Part shown: piece after piece, positions 1-5,216 of the stretch
How the letters are laid out: the number at the start of each line of letters is the position of its first letter
Numbering within the stretch: the stretch's first letter is position 1
NCBI GenBank assembly: GCA_023512255.1
Contig: JAILZY010000149.1
Span: 1 to 5,216 of the forward strand
Direction of reading: 5' to 3'
From: a bacterium
Lineage (GTDB): Bacteria > SZUA-182 > DTGQ01
DNA: 5,216 bases
Notes under the pieces: model-generated
The model's database searches: none
What the model was told of the DNA's origin: nothing
Seen by the model: the letters and a program-made list of their open reading frames with translations, nothing else
Position numbers and translations under genes: made by a program

Positions 1-24
1 TGCCATCCTTAATAAAAAGCCTGG

Positions 25-52
25 ATTACTGGTCTTAAGACCATGTCGTAAT
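25..52. repeat. Dyad symmetry with perfect 14-bp palindrome core
   Basis: TGGTCTTAAGACCA (30-43) equals its own reverse complement. Outside it, ATTAC (25-29) and GTAAT (48-52) extend the dyad if four bases on the right (44-47) are bulged. With no loop in the core it looks more like a dimeric protein's binding site than a terminator; no U-run follows directly. No associated gene is visible, so its role is unknown. Confidence 0.5.
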
Positions 53-100
53 TAAATTCCCTATCTACTCTTGAGTGCCAATTTATCATTTTGCCCTTTG

Positions 101-262
101 CTCAACTCTAATCTTGGCCTCTTGCCCTTTTCTCATCTTGTCCCACTTGCCCCACTCTTATCTTGCCCCGCTTGCTCAACTCTCATCTTGCCACTTTGCC
201 CCGCTTACCCCACTTTTATCTTGCCTTTGCCCTGCTCTAATCTTGCCCCTCTTGCCTTACTT
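101..262. repeat. Imperfect ~25-bp tandem repeat, six copies
   Basis: The hexamer ATCTTG recurs at 111, 135, 160, 185, 218 and 240 (spacing 24, 25, 25, 33, 22). A wider consensus CNACTCTNATCTTGCC is seen around most copies, separated by variable C/T-rich sequence. The + strand is pyrimidine-rich throughout. The conserved core is too short and the intervening parts too similar for a CRISPR array. Two + strand reading frames run through it only because the repeat lacks stop codons. Confidence 0.75.
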
Positions 263-304
263 TTTTCGCTCAGAATGCTGGCTGTAGCCTTATCTTAAAA
301 TGTG

Positions 305-330
305 TCTGGTAGTGAAATCTGGTAGTGAAA
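305..330. repeat. 13-bp exact tandem duplication
   Basis: TCTGGTAGTGAAA occurs at 305-317 and immediately again at 318-330. Its core TAGTGAAA also occurs twice in the 1151-1231 array on the other side of cas2. Confidence 0.8.
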
Positions 331-581: not shown

Positions 582-857
582 TCAAACAATATAAACATCC
601 TCCCTTTTGATTTTTTCTCCCTGTCCTATAATCTCAATTGCCTTTTCGCACTTGGCACACAAGGTGTAGATACGCACGCTGTCCTCATCCTGGTTAATGA
701 TTCGCCCGATCCTAGCCACCATCTGACTCAGGAGATGATTGTCCAGAAGGCATTCAAAAACGCTATACTGAACCCTATCTCCAAAATCTTCAAGCGCCTT
801 GGCCAGCGCAGTTCTTCGTTTGGTATCGGGAATATCATAAGAGACAACGTAATGCAT
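582..857 (-). CDS. cas2: Cas2, CRISPR adaptation protein
   Basis: Cas2 is a small ferredoxin-fold dimer that bridges two Cas1 dimers in the spacer-integration complex. The 91-aa product has a typical start MHYVVSYDIPDTKRR with the conserved Asp8, the central RVQYSVFEC motif and the C-terminal segment VRIYTLCAKCEKAIEIIGQG. Length is normal for the family and there is no disruption. I chose ATG 857 because it matches the usual Cas2 N-terminus. An in-frame GTG at 872 would add five residues but lies inside a local repeat. Neither start has a clear Shine-Dalgarno sequence. The gene is 452 nt from cas1, a long gap for a pair normally co-translated, and a good promoter lies in that gap, so cas2 may be transcribed separately. 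Confidence 0.96.
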   Translation of the reverse strand: MHYVVSYDIPDTKRRTALAKALEDFGDRVQYSVFECLLDNHLLSQMVARIGRIINQDEDSVRIYTLCAKCEKAIEIIGQGEKIKREDVYIV

Positions 858-957
858 GATAATAAACCGCACGGAATAAACCGTATGAATAATAAATGGA
901 TAATAAGCTGTATGGCGCCTTATGGATTTAAGGCTTCCCTCATCAACTTATTACTAC

Positions 958-1054
958 CATATTACTTGCCGCTCTGCCCTTACTGCCCGCTTGCATTACA
1001 TATTACTTGCCGCTTATATTACTGCTCTTACTGCCCGCTCGCGTTACTGCCGCT
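958..1054. repeat. Interleaved degenerate repeat with TTACT(T)GCC(C)GCT core, five copies
   Basis: TTACT cores at 962, 980, 1003, 1028 and 1044 are each followed by a GCCGCT- or GCCCGCT-like end. The 16-mer CATATTACTTGCCGCT is exact at 958-973 and 999-1014, and CTTACTGCCCGCT is exact at 979-991 and 1027-1039, so two variants alternate and suggest duplication of a composite unit. On the transcript it is AGCGG(G)CAGTAA-like. Confidence 0.75.
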
Positions 1055-1150
1055 TGACCTATTACTACCACTACTACCACTTGCTCCTGCTTGTACCAAA
1101 ATTTTAAATTCGAACTTACCACTACTAGCAACTCTCAACAACAGGATCAT

Positions 1151-1234
1151 GGGATAGTGAAACTCCCCAACACGGGAGGCTGAAATTCCCCCAAGGGATA
1201 GTGAAATTCTCAATCTGTCGTCTGAAATTTCCAA
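1151..1234. repeat. Four degenerate ~21-bp tandem repeats in the presumed cas2 leader
   Basis: TGAAA cores start at 1158, 1181, 1202 and 1223 (spacing 23, 21, 21). Copies 1 and 3 share GGGATAGTGAAA (1151-1162 and 1195-1206); copies 2 and 4 share CTGAAATT followed by CC. Thus A-B-A-B order is visible, pointing to duplication of a ~44-bp dimer. On the transcript the unit reads AATTTCACTATCCC-like. It lies immediately downstream of the promoter at 1269-1297. Confidence 0.7.
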
Positions 1235-1268
1235 TCTTGTTGTCTTAGTCTATCGTCTTATAGTTAAA

Positions 1269-1297
1269 ATGATATCATATCTAAATATCTTTGTCAA
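1269..1297 (-). promoter_or_regulatory. Sigma-70-like promoter between cas1 and cas2, pointing at cas2
   Basis: On the minus strand, TTGACA (1292-1297) is followed after exactly 17 nt by TATCAT (1269-1274). That is a perfect -35 and a 5/6 -10 at optimal spacing. A start near 1262 is implied, giving a leader of about 400 nt before cas2 that contains two repeat arrays. It lies just after the cas1 stop codon. The AT-rich context makes chance -10 matches easy, but the exact -35 and spacing argue for function. Confidence 0.6.
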
Positions 1298-1309
1298 TGT
1301 ATTATTATA

Positions 1310-2422
1310 CTAAACTCTCAATAAAAATGGAAAGTAGGCAATATTATTTTGAATTGTCGAAGCCAGCCTCTCGATTTGGAGTCGAAAACACTTTCTGAAG
1401 GTAGTTTTCTCCTCCGTTTGCGGGTGAGTGAATTCATGGGTCAGCATCTTTTCATATTCTACAAAGTAGCGCTTGAGAGGCTCTCTCTTTAAGTAAACCC
1501 CGCCATCCTTAGGGTTTGAGTAAAAGTCAGCCGGCTTTAGAATTCGATTATTGATCAGGCTGAGCACCAGACGATCAGCCAGCGGAGCCCGAAATTCTTC
1601 CATCAGGTCAGCGGCCAGGGATGCTCTGCCGTAGTCAAGGCTGTGGTAGTAGGCAAGGTAGGGATCAAAGCCCGAGCCATCGAGCAGAGAGGCAATTTCG
1701 GTAAAGATCATGGTATAGCTCAGGGAAAGAAGAGCATTGACCGGATCTTGAGCCGGATGCTTCCTCCTGCCTGAAAAGCTAAACCCATCGGCCAGAATCA
1801 TCCGGCCAAAGGCTCCAAAATAGGCACTAGCCGCACTGCCCTCAACCCCCATGAGTTGCTCAAGGTCTGCTGCCCGGTCCACACCTTGAAGCCTGGCTTC
1901 AAGGTCGCTGGCCGCAAGCCGCAGGGCCTCAACTCCTTGCCGGCCGCAGGGTCTCAAATCCCTGCCGCCTGATTCTGATACTGATACTGATATTGATTCT
2001 GATTCTGATCCTGATTCCTTATCCTTATCCTGATCCTGATCTTGATGATTGTAGGAAAAAAGCCGAATCAGGGCCAGACAATTTTTTATCTTGGCCGCCA
2101 CAATCGCCTTGGCTAGAGCCAGCCGAAAACCACTATCCCAGTACTTTTTAAACTGCTCAAGCCGCAAGGCAATATTCTTGGTGGCCGGAGCGGTAATCTG
2201 GCCAATGAGTTTGCCTGATCTGGTCAAAATGGCTAGCTCTATCCCTTGCCGAAGGAGCTCATGCAGCACCTGGGTAGTAACCTGAACATTGCCGAAAATG
2301 AGCACCGCCTCAATCTTGTTGTCCTGCACCTCAAGCAGAGTTTCACTCCCTTTTTGGACAATCAGCCGCTGGCCGCTCTTTCGCAGGATAGAATTTTGCT
2401 CAGTCAAATAAAGATTAGCCAT
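1310..2422 (-). CDS. cas1: Cas1, CRISPR integrase
   Basis: Cas1 is the metal-dependent integrase that, with Cas2, inserts new spacers into the CRISPR array. The 370-aa product starts with the N-terminal beta domain (MANLYLTEQ; IFGNVQVT at 42-49) followed by the helical catalytic domain. The likely catalytic residues are Glu194 (LMGVEGSAASAYF), His260 (AYYHSLDYGRASLA) and Asp272 (ADLMEEFRAPLADR), so the enzyme looks intact. It is somewhat longer than the usual ~320-340 residues because of a low-complexity insert at ~125-170: alternating Asp/Gln/Lys, then Ser/Glu/Val repeats, then an Arg/Leu/Gly segment read from a 25-bp tandem duplication. The insert is before the Glu194 motif, where Cas1 proteins tolerate variable length. 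ATG 2422 is preceded by AGGA at a 10-nt spacing. It lies 346 nt after csx3. Confidence 0.96.
   Translation of the reverse strand: MANLYLTEQNSILRKSGQRLIVQKGSETLLEVQDNKIEAVLIFGNVQVTTQVLHELLRQGIELAILTRSGKLIGQITAPATKNIALRLEQFKKYWDSGFRLALAKAIVAAKIKNCLALIRLFSYNHQDQDQDKDKESGSESESISVSVSESGGRDLRPCGRQGVEALRLAASDLEARLQGVDRAADLEQLMGVEGSAASAYFGAFGRMILADGFSFSGRRKHPAQDPVNALLSLSYTMIFTEIASLLDGSGFDPYLAYYHSLDYGRASLAADLMEEFRAPLADRLVLSLINNRILKPADFYSNPKDGGVYLKREPLKRYFVEYEKMLTHEFTHPQTEEKTTFRKCFRLQIERLASTIQNNIAYFPFLLRV
1918..1967. repeat. 25-bp tandem duplication inside cas1
   Basis: Two contiguous 25-bp units (1918-1942 and 1943-1967) differ at three positions. The second contains an inverted repeat GCAGGG (1946-1951) / CCCTGC (1960-1965). 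As 25 is not a multiple of three, the two units are translated in different frames, giving GRDLRPCG and QGVEALRLAA in the Cas1 insert. Confidence 0.8.
1970..2048. repeat. Hexanucleotide array (TGATNC) inside cas1
   Basis: About a dozen degenerate copies of a 6-bp unit, TGATTC/TGATAC/TGATCC, with two CTTATC variants. It is in frame and encodes the alternating Asp/Gln/Lys and Ser/Glu/Val/Ile stretch at Cas1 residues ~126-151. A 6-bp unit can expand or contract without breaking the frame. Confidence 0.85.
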
Positions 2423-2425
2423 ATA

Positions 2426-2487
2426 ATCAATATCCTAACGACCTGGGATCAATATCCCAAAGCCTTCATCTTTATCCCAAAGCCTTC
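2426..2487. repeat. Short duplications in the cas1 5' leader
   Basis: ATCAATATCC is at 2426-2435 and 2448-2457; TATCCCAAAGCCTTC is at 2453-2467 and 2473-2487. The second ATCAATATCC sits in a small dyad, GGGAT/ATCCC (2445-2458). Confidence 0.75.
2433..2436 (-). promoter_or_regulatory. Probable Shine-Dalgarno site of cas1, inside a duplicated 10-mer
   Basis: AGGA on the minus strand, 10 nt before ATG 2422, a slightly long spacing. It overlaps GGATATTGAT, which is repeated 22 bp upstream (2448-2457), so the ribosome-binding region is part of a local duplication. Confidence 0.45.
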
Positions 2488-2583
2488 TTTTCCCCTCATA
2501 CCCTTATCCCCTATACTTCCTTGCTATCTTGATCTCCTTATGTCTTTCCTCTTGCCTTTCCTCCTGCCTTTTTCCCTATCCTT

Positions 2584-2603
2584 TCTTGTCTTTCCTGACA
2601 AGA
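2584..2603. repeat. 7-bp perfect hairpin
   Basis: TCTTGTC (2584-2590) and GACAAGA (2597-2603) are inverted repeats with a 6-nt loop, in an otherwise purine/pyrimidine-biased tract where stems are unlikely. No U-run follows on the transcribed strand. Confidence 0.4.
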
Positions 2604-2612
2604 CAGATCATC

Positions 2613-2644
2613 AAGCTCGTCTGCCGCTAAGCTCATCTGCCGCT
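2613..2644. repeat. 16-bp tandem duplication
   Basis: AAGCTCGTCTGCCGCT (2613-2628) is followed directly by a copy with one change (2629-2644). Confidence 0.85.
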
Positions 2645-2653
2645 GTGCTGGCG

Positions 2654-2758
2654 ATCAATCGCTTGACGCCGGCCTGCCCATCAATCGCTTCCCGCTGTCC
2701 CGGCGATCAATCGCTTATCACTTAGCCTGGCTATCAATCGCTCTAATTCGGCGCTTTA
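2654..2758. repeat. 26-bp tandem repeat, four copies with conserved 10-mer
   Basis: ATCAATCGCT begins at 2654, 2680, 2706 and 2733 (spacing 26, 26, 27). The ~16 bp between cores are G/C-rich and only loosely alike. The last unit runs into the 13-bp array at 2739-2778. Confidence 0.85.
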
Positions 2759-2778
2759 TTCGGGCGCTCTAATTCGGG
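2739..2778. repeat. 13-bp tandem repeat, three copies, containing the csx3 stop codon
   Basis: CGCTCTAATTCGG at 2739-2751 and 2765-2777, with a degenerate copy CGCTTTATTCGGG between them (2752-2764). The csx3 TAG stop and last Asn codon lie within the copy nearest the gene. Confidence 0.85.
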
Positions 2779-3101
2779 CTGTGATCAAAGATCACCACCT
2801 CGCCCGCTACCGGCGAGCGATAGATGAGCCGTCTTGCCCGCCCATGCAGGGCGTGGGCCACCTTAAGATACATCCAAATCGGAGCCTGGCCAGTGATAAT
2901 AACTACCTTCCCTTCACCAGCCAAGCGTTTGGCCTGCTCCAAATACCGGTCAAGGTCGGCTAACTTAGCCACATCTCCTTGATAAAGGAGCGAAAGATCA
3001 ATCGTAACTACTTCCGCCCCACTCCCTTCTGCCGGCACCCCGCCCCCTTCTGCCGATGGCTTGCTCCCTTCTGCTGAATTCTCTTTCTTTGCAGAATCCA
3101 C
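2769..3101 (-). CDS. csx3: Csx3/Crn3-like ring nuclease, variant lacking the usual YDP aspartate
   Basis: A 110-aa protein with the Csx3 core at about residues 31-110. Csx3 (Crn3) proteins form tetramers and cleave cyclic tetra-adenylate with Mn2+, ending type III immune signalling. Family-like features are GKVVIITGQAPIWMY (64-78; compare 'GrgPiWLY' in relatives), the pair His83/His86 and a hydrophobic strand EVVIFDH (101-107). The segment that normally reads YDP is Y94-R95-S96-P97, so the acidic residue I recall as catalytic in the Archaeoglobus protein appears to be Arg; Asp106-His107 is the nearest alternative. Residues ~9-29 are three 7-residue repeats, (S/P)AEG(S/G)xx, an unusual N-terminal tail. 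The start is GTG 3101, with GGAG 8 nt upstream. The gene follows can2 by 94 nt, which fits an effector plus off-switch pair. Identity rests on motif memory, not a search. Confidence 0.78.
   Translation of the reverse strand: MDSAKKENSAEGSKPSAEGGGVPAEGSGAEVVTIDLSLLYQGDVAKLADLDRYLEQAKRLAGEGKVVIITGQAPIWMYLKVAHALHGRARRLIYRSPVAGEVVIFDHSPN
3024..3076. repeat. 21-bp repeat, three copies, inside csx3
   Basis: CCCTTCTGC(C/T)G is at 3024-3034, 3045-3055 and 3066-3076, exactly 21 bp apart. It keeps frame and encodes the seven-residue (S/P)AEG(S/G)xx repeats of the Csx3 N-terminal tail. Confidence 0.85.
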
Positions 3102-3109
3102 TCTTCTCT

Positions 3110-3113
3110 CTCC
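3110..3113 (-). promoter_or_regulatory. Shine-Dalgarno site of csx3
   Basis: GGAG on the minus strand, 8 nt before GTG 3101. It supports the non-ATG start and therefore inclusion of the repetitive N-terminal tail in the protein. Confidence 0.65.
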
Positions 3114-3121
3114 GCTAATTA

Positions 3122-3152
3122 AGTATGGATTGGTCCCTCTTGAGTATGGATT
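3122..3152. repeat. 10-mer direct repeat in the can2-csx3 gap
   Basis: AGTATGGATT is at 3122-3131 and 3143-3152, 21 bp apart. Confidence 0.6.
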
Positions 3153-3175
3153 TAACTATATTTAGCTATCTATAT

Positions 3176-3217
3176 TTAACTATCTATTGAGTTAACTATC
3201 TATTGAGATCTATTGAG
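3176..3217. repeat. 16-bp exact tandem repeat spanning the can2 stop codon
   Basis: TTAACTATCTATTGAG occurs exactly at 3176-3191 and 3192-3207, and a 10-bp partial copy (ATCTATTGAG) follows at 3208-3217. The can2 stop (TAG, 3196-3198) and its final codons lie in the second and third copies, so the end of the protein derives from repeat sequence. Confidence 0.9.
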
Positions 3218-4479
3218 TTTTTAGCTCTTATCTTTTGAGCGATTTTCTCCTTTAGCTGACCAAGCTCAGAAAGTGAGATAATCTCGGACTTAAACCGCTT
3301 CGCCAGATCCTCCGAAGGGGAGGAGGCGGTAACCAAAAAGCTATTCACTTTCAAGCCAAAATTTTGCTGTAAGGCTTCAATCTTGTAAAGGGTAGATTTG
3401 GTCTCTCCCTTGTCCTGAGGGAGGGATTTGCACTCCACAAAATAGAGCGCATTATCTTTGGTAAACAGGCAATCGTATTCATTTTCATTATTGCTCTTTT
3501 GACCCTCTGCTGCTTGGCGGCAGACACTTTTGCCCTCAGGCTGGCCAGGCTGGCGGCTCAGCTGCCCTTGGCCGTAATCCGCCTCCTGCCCATGAAATTT
3601 TTCAAGGTGCAGCCCGATCTGCACATCATCAATAAGGCCCTGCTCATGCAACTCCAACAGGCTGTTGAAACAATACTCCTCAAGCCAGCCTCCGGTTAAA
3701 TACCTAATCTGCGACTTAGTTAGCTTTTTGCTGATAGTCAGCCTTTGGCTGCCCTCCTCATTGGACAAGCTGAATCCAAACCGACCGAGAAACGCTCTCT
3801 CCTCTTGAGTTGGTTTATCGAAGGTATCGGTAAGCTCAAAATTTTTCTTATTCCGATGATTCCCTAGCTTACTATAAAGCCAATGAAGCAGGTTCTCGAT
3901 CTGATTATAGTTTTCAACCATCCACTTGGACAGTTCCTTGCGCTCTTTTGCCTCCTGGCGGCAGGTGTCTAAATTTTTATTATTCAGCACCTTGAGGCTA
4001 TAGGCTGTCAGATACTCAATAACCTTTAGCCGAAGATTGAGCGCTGTAGGCTGGCCCGCACTTTTTTTCGGAAAGGGCACAATAAACTCATTTTTCGCTA
4101 TCGGCACATAGATCATTTTATTATTATAATCCCTGAAAAATTCATAGGCCGCAAAGGACATGATCTTTGTGCCGCAGGTCAAATTAACTACAAATTCAAC
4201 TTCTTCTTTGCCTTTTCCACTTTTATTAATCCATTCATCGAGCCGCTGATAGCAATCAAGGATCGAATCCTCCTGAACCAGGATTTTGTGGAACTTATTA
4301 TCCTTCTGGTAGTCTCCTAGCTCCAGCAGCTCGAGGGTCTTCAGAATGCTTGAGGTTTTGCACTGATTCTCCATCTTTTGAGTTGAGATGAACAAAAGCT
4401 CATCAGGCTTAAAATGATGAATAGCCAGAATGTTAGGAATAGGCTGCTCGCTGACCAGCGAGACAAGAACACGACTCAT
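3196..4479 (-). CDS. can2: Can2/Card1-type CARF-PD-(D/E)XK nuclease (DUF1887 family), cyclic-oligoadenylate-activated CRISPR effector
   Basis: This 427-aa protein fits the Can2/Card1 family, whose studied members bind cA4 through a CARF domain and then cut nucleic acids non-specifically (Card1: single-stranded RNA and DNA; Can2: RNA and supercoiled DNA). The N-terminal CARF domain covers about residues 1-145, with the ligand-loop motif NLTCGTK at 99-105; relatives usually read TGGTK, so the Cys is a substitution. A helical linker follows. The nuclease domain starts near GGWLEEY (263-269) and has Asp336 and E349-C-K351 as the PD-(D/E)XK core. Residues ~296-329, just before the catalytic Asp, are a Gln/Gly/Pro-rich insert. 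I chose ATG 4479 because GGAG lies 8 nt upstream; an in-frame GTG at 4497 has no such site. It stands where csm6 is often found in III-A loci. The last codons and TAG lie within a tandem repeat. Confidence 0.87.
   Translation of the reverse strand: MSRVLVSLVSEQPIPNILAIHHFKPDELLFISTQKMENQCKTSSILKTLELLELGDYQKDNKFHKILVQEDSILDCYQRLDEWINKSGKGKEEVEFVVNLTCGTKIMSFAAYEFFRDYNNKMIYVPIAKNEFIVPFPKKSAGQPTALNLRLKVIEYLTAYSLKVLNNKNLDTCRQEAKERKELSKWMVENYNQIENLLHWLYSKLGNHRNKKNFELTDTFDKPTQEERAFLGRFGFSLSNEEGSQRLTISKKLTKSQIRYLTGGWLEEYCFNSLLELHEQGLIDDVQIGLHLEKFHGQEADYGQGQLSRQPGQPEGKSVCRQAAEGQKSNNENEYDCLFTKDNALYFVECKSLPQDKGETKSTLYKIEALQQNFGLKVNSFLVTASSPSEDLAKRFKSEIISLSELGQLKEKIAQKIRAKNSIDLNR
3537..3554. repeat. 9-bp exact duplication inside can2
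   Basis: CAGGCTGGC at 3537-3545 and 3546-3554. In frame, it makes a repeated Gln-Pro-Gly-like triplet in the insert before the nuclease core of Can2. Confidence 0.7.
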
Positions 4480-4487
4480 AGCTCTAT

Positions 4488-4491
4488 CTCC
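4488..4491 (-). promoter_or_regulatory. Shine-Dalgarno site of can2
   Basis: GGAG on the minus strand, 8 nt before ATG 4479. It decides the start: the in-frame GTG at 4497 would give six more residues but has no comparable site and lies in an 11-bp duplication. Confidence 0.7.
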
Positions 4492-4512
4492 ATTCACGTA
4501 TCATTCATGTAT
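4491..4512. repeat. 11-bp tandem duplication in the csm5-can2 gap
   Basis: CATTCACGTAT (4491-4501) is followed by CATTCATGTAT (4502-4512), one mismatch. It lies directly upstream of the can2 ribosome-binding site and occupies almost half of the 46-nt spacer. Confidence 0.8.
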
Positions 4513-4525
4513 CATACTGACAGTG

Positions 4526-5216
4526 TTATGCTGGCAGCACCTCAAGCACTGCCCAGCCAAAAGGGACCAGGCTGCTGCCTGCTGTGGGTTTGCTTTTTTC
4601 AGAGGCTAGCCACAGGGTAGTGGCCTGGGGTAGAAACCGGGGGGATTGCCCCTTTCCCTGCATGATCTTTATGTGCCGGTTTCCCTCGATGGTTACTGCT
4701 TCAGCGCCAGAGTGTCTACCAAGACGAATCAGGACTGAAGAGTGGTTCAATTTGAACCCCTCTTTGATCCTCTTGACCACTACACTACCTGCACCAATCT
4801 CATAGGTAACTTTATTTTCCTCATTCACCAGCGAGACATAAAATGCATTAACTGATTGCAGAAGCTCTTCAGCCTTAATCGGTTTCTTTATACAGTCAGA
4901 TGCCGGTGGCTTCTGGATATTGATCATCCCCTCAAATACAGCCCCCTCTTGAATGGTTTCGACAATCTGAAATGGCCCTCTAGCCTCAAACTTTGATTTC
5001 TTTTTCTTCCTGTTGACCGCATACATAATTTTCGTCTTGACATTCTGAAGGGGAAGAAAATCAGAAACCTTGACCAGCCTGAAGGGATCAGTATCAAAGC
5101 TGCCGCCATCAAGAAGATACTTTTCAAATTCTTTGGCCTGCTCAGATGTTCCCCATGTTGAAAAAATAATGTTGAAAATATAAAGGGGAGGAGAGAAAAT
5201 AAAGAGAGAAGAAAGT
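4526..5216 (-). CDS. csm5: Csm5, type III-A Csm complex backbone protein (C-terminal part; 5' end outside window)
   Basis: Csm5 is a RAMP-fold subunit that caps the crRNA 3' end in the cytoplasmic Csm complex and helps crRNA maturation. The visible frame is open from the window edge and gives 229 residues ending in TAA. I continued it upstream of the internal Met at 5026 because the added stretch (DPFRLVKVSD at fragment residues 43-52) matches the Csm5 pattern of a conserved Arg followed by 'vsD'. Further C-terminal hallmarks are LIRLGRHSGAEAVTIEG (162-178), TTLWLAS (199-205) and PFGW (218-221). The first ~20 residues are hydrophobic low-complexity sequence read from a pyrimidine-rich tract and may be an insert. 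The next gene starts 46 nt downstream, so the two are probably co-transcribed. Identity is firm from these motifs; the true start and any upstream disruption cannot be seen. Confidence 0.9.
   Translation of the reverse strand, partial: LSSLFIFSPPLYIFNIIFSTWGTSEQAKEFEKYLLDGGSFDTDPFRLVKVSDFLPLQNVKTKIMYAVNRKKKKSKFEARGPFQIVETIQEGAVFEGMINIQKPPASDCIKKPIKAEELLQSVNAFYVSLVNEENKVTYEIGAGSVVVKRIKEGFKLNHSSVLIRLGRHSGAEAVTIEGNRHIKIMQGKGQSPRFLPQATTLWLASEKSKPTAGSSLVPFGWAVLEVLPA

Follow-up and report, generated by a model that had tools for sequence, protein, structure and literature searches.

Bacterial VNTR loci form a limited set of multi-copy tandem repeats and are thought to change by slippage. Tandem repeats are pervasive in the Borg elements of methane-oxidising archaea, where each site has its own unit and the units within genes are multiples of three (PMC9879509), while in mammalian cells the fill-in of offset nicks gives microhomology-poor tandem duplications, mostly in a Ku80-dependent manner (PMC8355091). 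The repeats described here lie in the gaps of a bacterial cas operon, in a window (the whole stretch of DNA analysed, 5216 bp) that is a dense patch of genome-wide short tandem duplication. Like bacterial minisatellites and VNTR loci, they include intergenic tandem units of 10-26 bp and a region, window 1-315, whose length varies among three copies, but the ~30% of the genome that was sampled held hundreds of sites with duplications of this kind, most of them two-copy.

Repeat arrays in and around a cas operon

The window is the entire contig C11 of a 3.83-Mb genome assembled in 172 contigs, and the presence of MutS1 together with a completeness of 96.6% suggests a chromosome rather than an extrachromosomal element. 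Every gene is on the minus strand, and the operon runs from a csm5-like fragment through a Card1-like CARF nuclease, a csx3-like gene and cas1 to cas2:

1-581, region after cas2: array of ~25-bp units and a perfect 13-bp repeat in two copies
582-857, minus strand, cas2 (PF09827, 8.5e-25; TIGR01573)
858-1309, cas1-cas2 gap, 452 nt: composite repeats at 958-1245; single-copy in the genome
1310-2422, minus strand, cas1 (PF01867, 1.3e-84)
2423-2768, cas1-csx3 gap, 346 nt: 20-, 16-, 25-26- and 13-bp repeats; single-copy in the genome
2769-3101, minus strand, predicted csx3-like ring nuclease gene (PF09620, 9.3e-8; PADLOC match from residue 29)
3102-3195, csx3-Card1 gap, 94 nt: AT-rich repeats continuing into the end of the next gene
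3196-4479, minus strand, Card1/Can2-like CARF and PD-(D/E)XK nuclease (PF23400, 5.1e-30; PF09002, 8.8e-20)
4480-4525, Card1-csm5 gap, 46 nt: weak 11-bp repeat, 2.3 copies
4526-5142, minus strand, csm5-like gene, its 5' side cut by an insertion sequence (IS) (PADLOC Csm5, 7.6e-10; TIGR01899, 4e-4)
5143-5216, left end of a high-copy IS with terminal repeat CAGATGTTCCCCAT and a 9-bp target duplication

The first ~28 codons of the csx3-like gene are repeat-like and fall outside the family match, and its start codon is uncertain. As the IS end occupies 5143-5216, csm5 is interrupted by the element and the contig ends inside it; a search by the expected 9-bp IS junction did not recover the contig with the remainder of csm5.

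The original prediction, made from the sequence alone, placed local repeats in all four intergenic gaps and after cas2, and nearly all of the arrays that it named were recovered by Tandem Repeats Finder and a direct-repeat search, although a 21-bp unit at 3122 proved to be a 10-bp word repeated 20 bp apart, with no array. After cas2, ~25-bp units occur in seven copies (89-272), followed by a perfect 13-bp duplication (305-330). The cas1-cas2 gap holds a perfect 16-mer pair (958/999), 23-24 bp units (980-1047) and 21-bp units (1151-1245), while the cas1-csx3 gap holds a 20-bp repeat (2448-2487), a 16-bp repeat in two copies (2613-2644), 25-26 bp units in four copies (2640-2743) and, at its end, 13/14-bp units in three copies (2739-2779). 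From the csx3-Card1 gap into the end of Card1 there are a 14-bp repeat (3153-3180) and a perfect 16-bp duplication (3176-3207), and the 11-bp repeat of the Card1-csm5 gap (4491-4515) scores 43. Arrays were also present within genes, in cas1 (1918-2046) and csx3 (3017-3058). In total, 10 arrays with a score of at least 50 cover 705 bp of the window, whereas 60 dinucleotide shuffles gave a mean of 0.05 arrays and 1.8 bp, with a maximum of one array; repeat density is thus far above that of shuffled sequence.

A single transposed element in all gaps had been argued against, correctly, as likeness from gap to gap was at the level of shuffled sequence except between gaps 1 and 2, where it was weak (score 24 versus a shuffle maximum of 21). 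The companion claim that each gap has private, unrelated sequence holds for gaps 2, 3 and 4, which occur once each in the genome, but fails for the leftmost array, as two diverged copies of it exist elsewhere in the genome. Window 1-315 is matched at C71:1-279 (85%) and C87:13339-13581 (69%); the three copies have diverged and differ in length (315, 279 and 243 bp by match in C11, C71 and C87, respectively), and contigs C11 and C71 both open at an identical base of the region. The region is possibly a shared CRISPR leader; it has no likeness to the leader region of a genome from the same genus, and no CRISPR repeat of the same-genus type was found in this genome. The three long gaps also have a pyrimidine-rich plus strand in common and contain 23 [CT]TGCC words in ~1.4 kb, on one strand only (genome density 4.0 per kb, both strands together), which amounts to a weak common theme. 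A growth of the gaps along the operon had also been proposed, and the lengths of 46, 94, 346 and 452 nt are right if Card1 starts at the ATG at 4479 (an alternative GTG start is possible at 4497), but this growth carries no weight because four gaps are monotone by chance in 1/24 orders.

In the same-genus genome the order card1-csx3-cas1-cas2 is as here, and a CRISPR array with 42 repeats comes next. The gaps of that operon measure 20, 335 and 57 nt, versus 94, 346 and 452 nt in the window, and the 335-nt gap contains a different repeat, of 18 bp. A lone, slightly degenerate repeat of the downstream 42-repeat array lies in the same-genus cas1-csx3 gap (L055:12186-12222). Other homologous cas1-cas2 pairs are mostly separated by 6-67 nt, with exceptions of 117 and ~217 nt (measured between match ends); in one genome of the same class, a short partial copy of the cas2 start lies just upstream of cas2 (L003:710-763), a local gene-start duplication. 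Within the coding sequence, the window Cas1 has 370 residues versus 329 matched in a Scalindua relative, and the surplus is the repeat-coded linker (DNA 1918-2046), which is missing from Cas1 of relatives; the same-genus Cas1 has its own low-complexity insertion elsewhere in the protein. Between the two same-genus genomes, identity is ~36% for Cas1 (window 1310-2422; L055:11054-12136), 68% for Csx3 and 53% for Card1, while the window Cas1 is 62% identical to that of the Scalindua genome. The low Cas1 identity looks as if cas1 had been exchanged.

The IS that ends the contig belongs to a high-copy family with 14-bp terminal repeats, present at many contig ends. The loci read contained 86 left and 21 right ends of the element, and 14 left/right pairs have exactly 9 bp of flanking sequence in common. 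A 14-bp repeat in two copies at 5155-5182 is internal to the IS and not part of the operon. The long leader of the element contains an inverted repeat, TTACCGTGG...CCACGGTAA, before its likely start codon (L118, L171). A second repeat family, ATTCGCTCTTAT..., also occurs at contig ends (L033 end, L155 end, L206 start) and contains a 23-bp tandem repeat, ATATCAGAACAACCATAAACCCT.

Short tandem duplications across the genome

Duplications were counted in 1.15 Mb of other contigs of the same genome (~30% of the genome) as adjacent copies at least 90% identical with a unit of 12-23 bp, after removal of low-complexity and duplicate units. Coding DNA was taken as the longest non-overlapping ORFs with 100 or more codons and all else as non-coding, so that small genes are counted as gap. 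The 207 kb of non-coding DNA contained 239 such duplications, a rate of 1.15 per kb that is 12 times the coding rate of 0.096 per kb, while all 1.15 Mb when shuffled gave three in total. The same-genus genome reached 0.34 per kb of non-coding DNA (over 504 kb), family and order relatives 0.12-0.31 per kb (in small samples) and other genomes of the class 0.08 per kb. No such duplications were found in 20.1 kb of non-coding DNA of E. coli K-12, and three distant genomes gave three in 6.1 kb, a sample too small to set a rate for bacteria in general.

The repeats had originally been read as a property of the cas operon spacers. Their occurrence throughout the genome, and within cas1 and csx3, contradicts this, and a CRISPR-specific duplication process is rejected on the same grounds. 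When repeat density inside and outside the CRISPR locus was compared, the window ranked first among 225 sampled tiles, with arrays covering 13.5% of its bases (9.8% in the runner-up), yet repeats run through the whole genome, and the top rank is no independent test as the window was chosen for looking repetitive.

The unit differs from site to site, and nearly all duplications are two-copy, with few arrays beyond 2.5 copies. Unit lengths range broadly over 8-22 bp, and longer units become steadily scarcer (46 duplications at 12 bp, 2 at 23 bp); only three longer units were found (25, 27 and 40 bp) versus the 239 of 12-23 bp, giving a cap near 22 bp, and perfect duplications end at 20 bp with a single exception at 40 bp. 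The G+C fraction of the duplicated units is 0.306. Within genes, unit length is divisible by three in 80 of 90 cases, indicating that the copies are real and have been filtered by selection. Rates were similar in co-directional (1.26 per kb), divergent (1.24) and convergent (1.32) gaps and flat along the gap, as expected of a feature that arises by mutation and not for regulation, and any regulatory or orientation preference was rejected. Mismatches between copies are common and graded in number, suggesting that the duplication process has been running for some time.

Origin of the duplications

On balance, the gap repeats are probably a local extreme of a genome-wide head-to-tail duplication of ~8-22 bp by fill-in and rejoining of staggered breaks. 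Two nicks on opposite strands, up to ~20 bp apart, would open the duplex at random places; after fill-in of the single-stranded tails and joining of the ends, the sequence flanked by the nicks would be present twice, head to tail. With nicks farther apart the strands would, we infer, remain annealed, which would set the cap near 22 bp. Selection would then clear the products from genes unless the unit were a multiple of three, and would not oppose them elsewhere. This nick-pair step is proposed from the pattern of the duplications in sequence. At the cas locus, several rounds may have struck the same gaps, with older copies decaying and being extended again into the degenerate 25-26 bp arrays. 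Since the window arrays of 24-26 bp units in 3-7 copies exceed the genome-wide cap, a second expansion step is needed, and slippage may well act there.

Replication slippage as the general source, in which a nascent strand re-pairs with a short direct repeat already present and the sequence in between is copied, is unlikely. It is a known source of tandem repeats, the multi-copy arrays of the window resemble its action once a repeat exists, and the three copies of window 1-315 differ in length. Slippage between short direct repeats, however, leaves each duplication with a surplus beyond its two copies that is as long as the seeding repeat, whereas the mean extension of 114 perfect duplications was 0.61 bp versus 0.72 bp expected by chance, which disfavours slippage on pre-existing repeats for most events. 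The scarcity of arrays beyond 2.5 copies, the length cap and the presence of MutS1 also speak against it; as MutS1 is present, loss of mismatch repair is rejected as a cause. The original prediction of a local duplication process acting on the spacers is thus upheld in a genome-wide form, and of the two mechanisms that it offered, slippage is disfavoured and short-patch repair is the closer.

An error of replication or repair that needs no homology, for example a polymerase re-initiating 8-22 nt back on its template, has a similarly small chance of being the source. It would fit the length cap and absent microhomology equally well and would require no end-joining enzyme, consistent with the missing Ku, but no specific signature of it was found, and by sequence alone it is inseparable from the nick-pair model. 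Far less probable are footprints of mobile elements, that is, target-site duplications left in tandem by precise excision: the genome is rich in IS and other repeats at contig ends, but in 14/14 pairs the target duplication of the dominant IS is exactly 9 bp long, not 8-22 bp, which excludes this element as the source, and among repeats of 13 bp or more no larger spacing stands out as a peak. An assembly artefact is the least credible origin, even though the assembly is fragmented into 172 contigs and the window, itself a short contig, breaks at an IS, as an artefact would neither avoid genes 12-fold nor give multiples of three within them, mismatches between copies are graded, and the assembly retains exact tandem runs of 22-35 bp within genes, which also rules out the assembler as the origin of the length cap.

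For fill-in and rejoining of staggered breaks, the rejoining step is without a known agent, because Ku (PF02735) is absent from this genome and 8 relatives, with a positive control in B. subtilis; Ku-based end joining is thereby ruled out. More tentatively, duplication independent of homology and strictly limited to ~22 bp might be active in a bacterium without Ku, where it would have reshaped the non-coding DNA and would lengthen protein linkers such as that of Cas1. The agent of such a capped process could be, for example, a nicking activity combined with an unrecognised end-joining route.

Relation to described systems

A search of one literature library for descriptions of a bacterial genome with two-copy, capped, microhomology-free gap duplications found none, which is weak evidence of novelty. 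The genome would give a natural setting among bacteria for studying short tandem duplication as a mutational signature that is length-limited, microhomology-free and outside the Ku-dependent route, and it shows a route by which intergenic gaps and low-complexity protein linkers lengthen. It also cautions that repeats in cas gaps are not necessarily CRISPR biology.

Among described sources of such repeats, a slippage-born minisatellite is seeded by a short direct repeat that leaves microhomology at its edges, and none beyond chance was seen here. Footprints of an IS have the length of the element's target duplication, 9 bp for the dominant family, which does not match the 8-22 bp observed. The duplications made from offset nicks are closer in kind, being short, two-copy and with little microhomology, as expected of staggered-end fill-in, and on the mammalian side they are mostly Ku80-dependent and aided by CST-Pol alpha-primase (PMC8355091). 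Adjacent pairs of copies without edge microhomology were likewise found here, but Ku-type machinery was not. To our knowledge, neither Ku80 nor CST-Pol alpha-primase is expected in bacteria.

The Borg repeats are alike in being replicon-wide, in having their own unit at each site, in occurring both between and within genes and in being far rarer in the related or host genome. Distinct, pervasive units and genic units divisible by three are thus found in both. Borg repeats, however, are perfect and multi-copy (regions of at least 50 nt), A-rich and accompanied by flanking partial repeats (PMC9879509), and their carriers are linear and extrachromosomal; perfect multi-copy units with such flanks are not the pattern here. 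Instead, the duplications of this genome are mostly two-copy, often diverged and located on a bacterial chromosome, with a cap near 22 bp and no homology at their edges.
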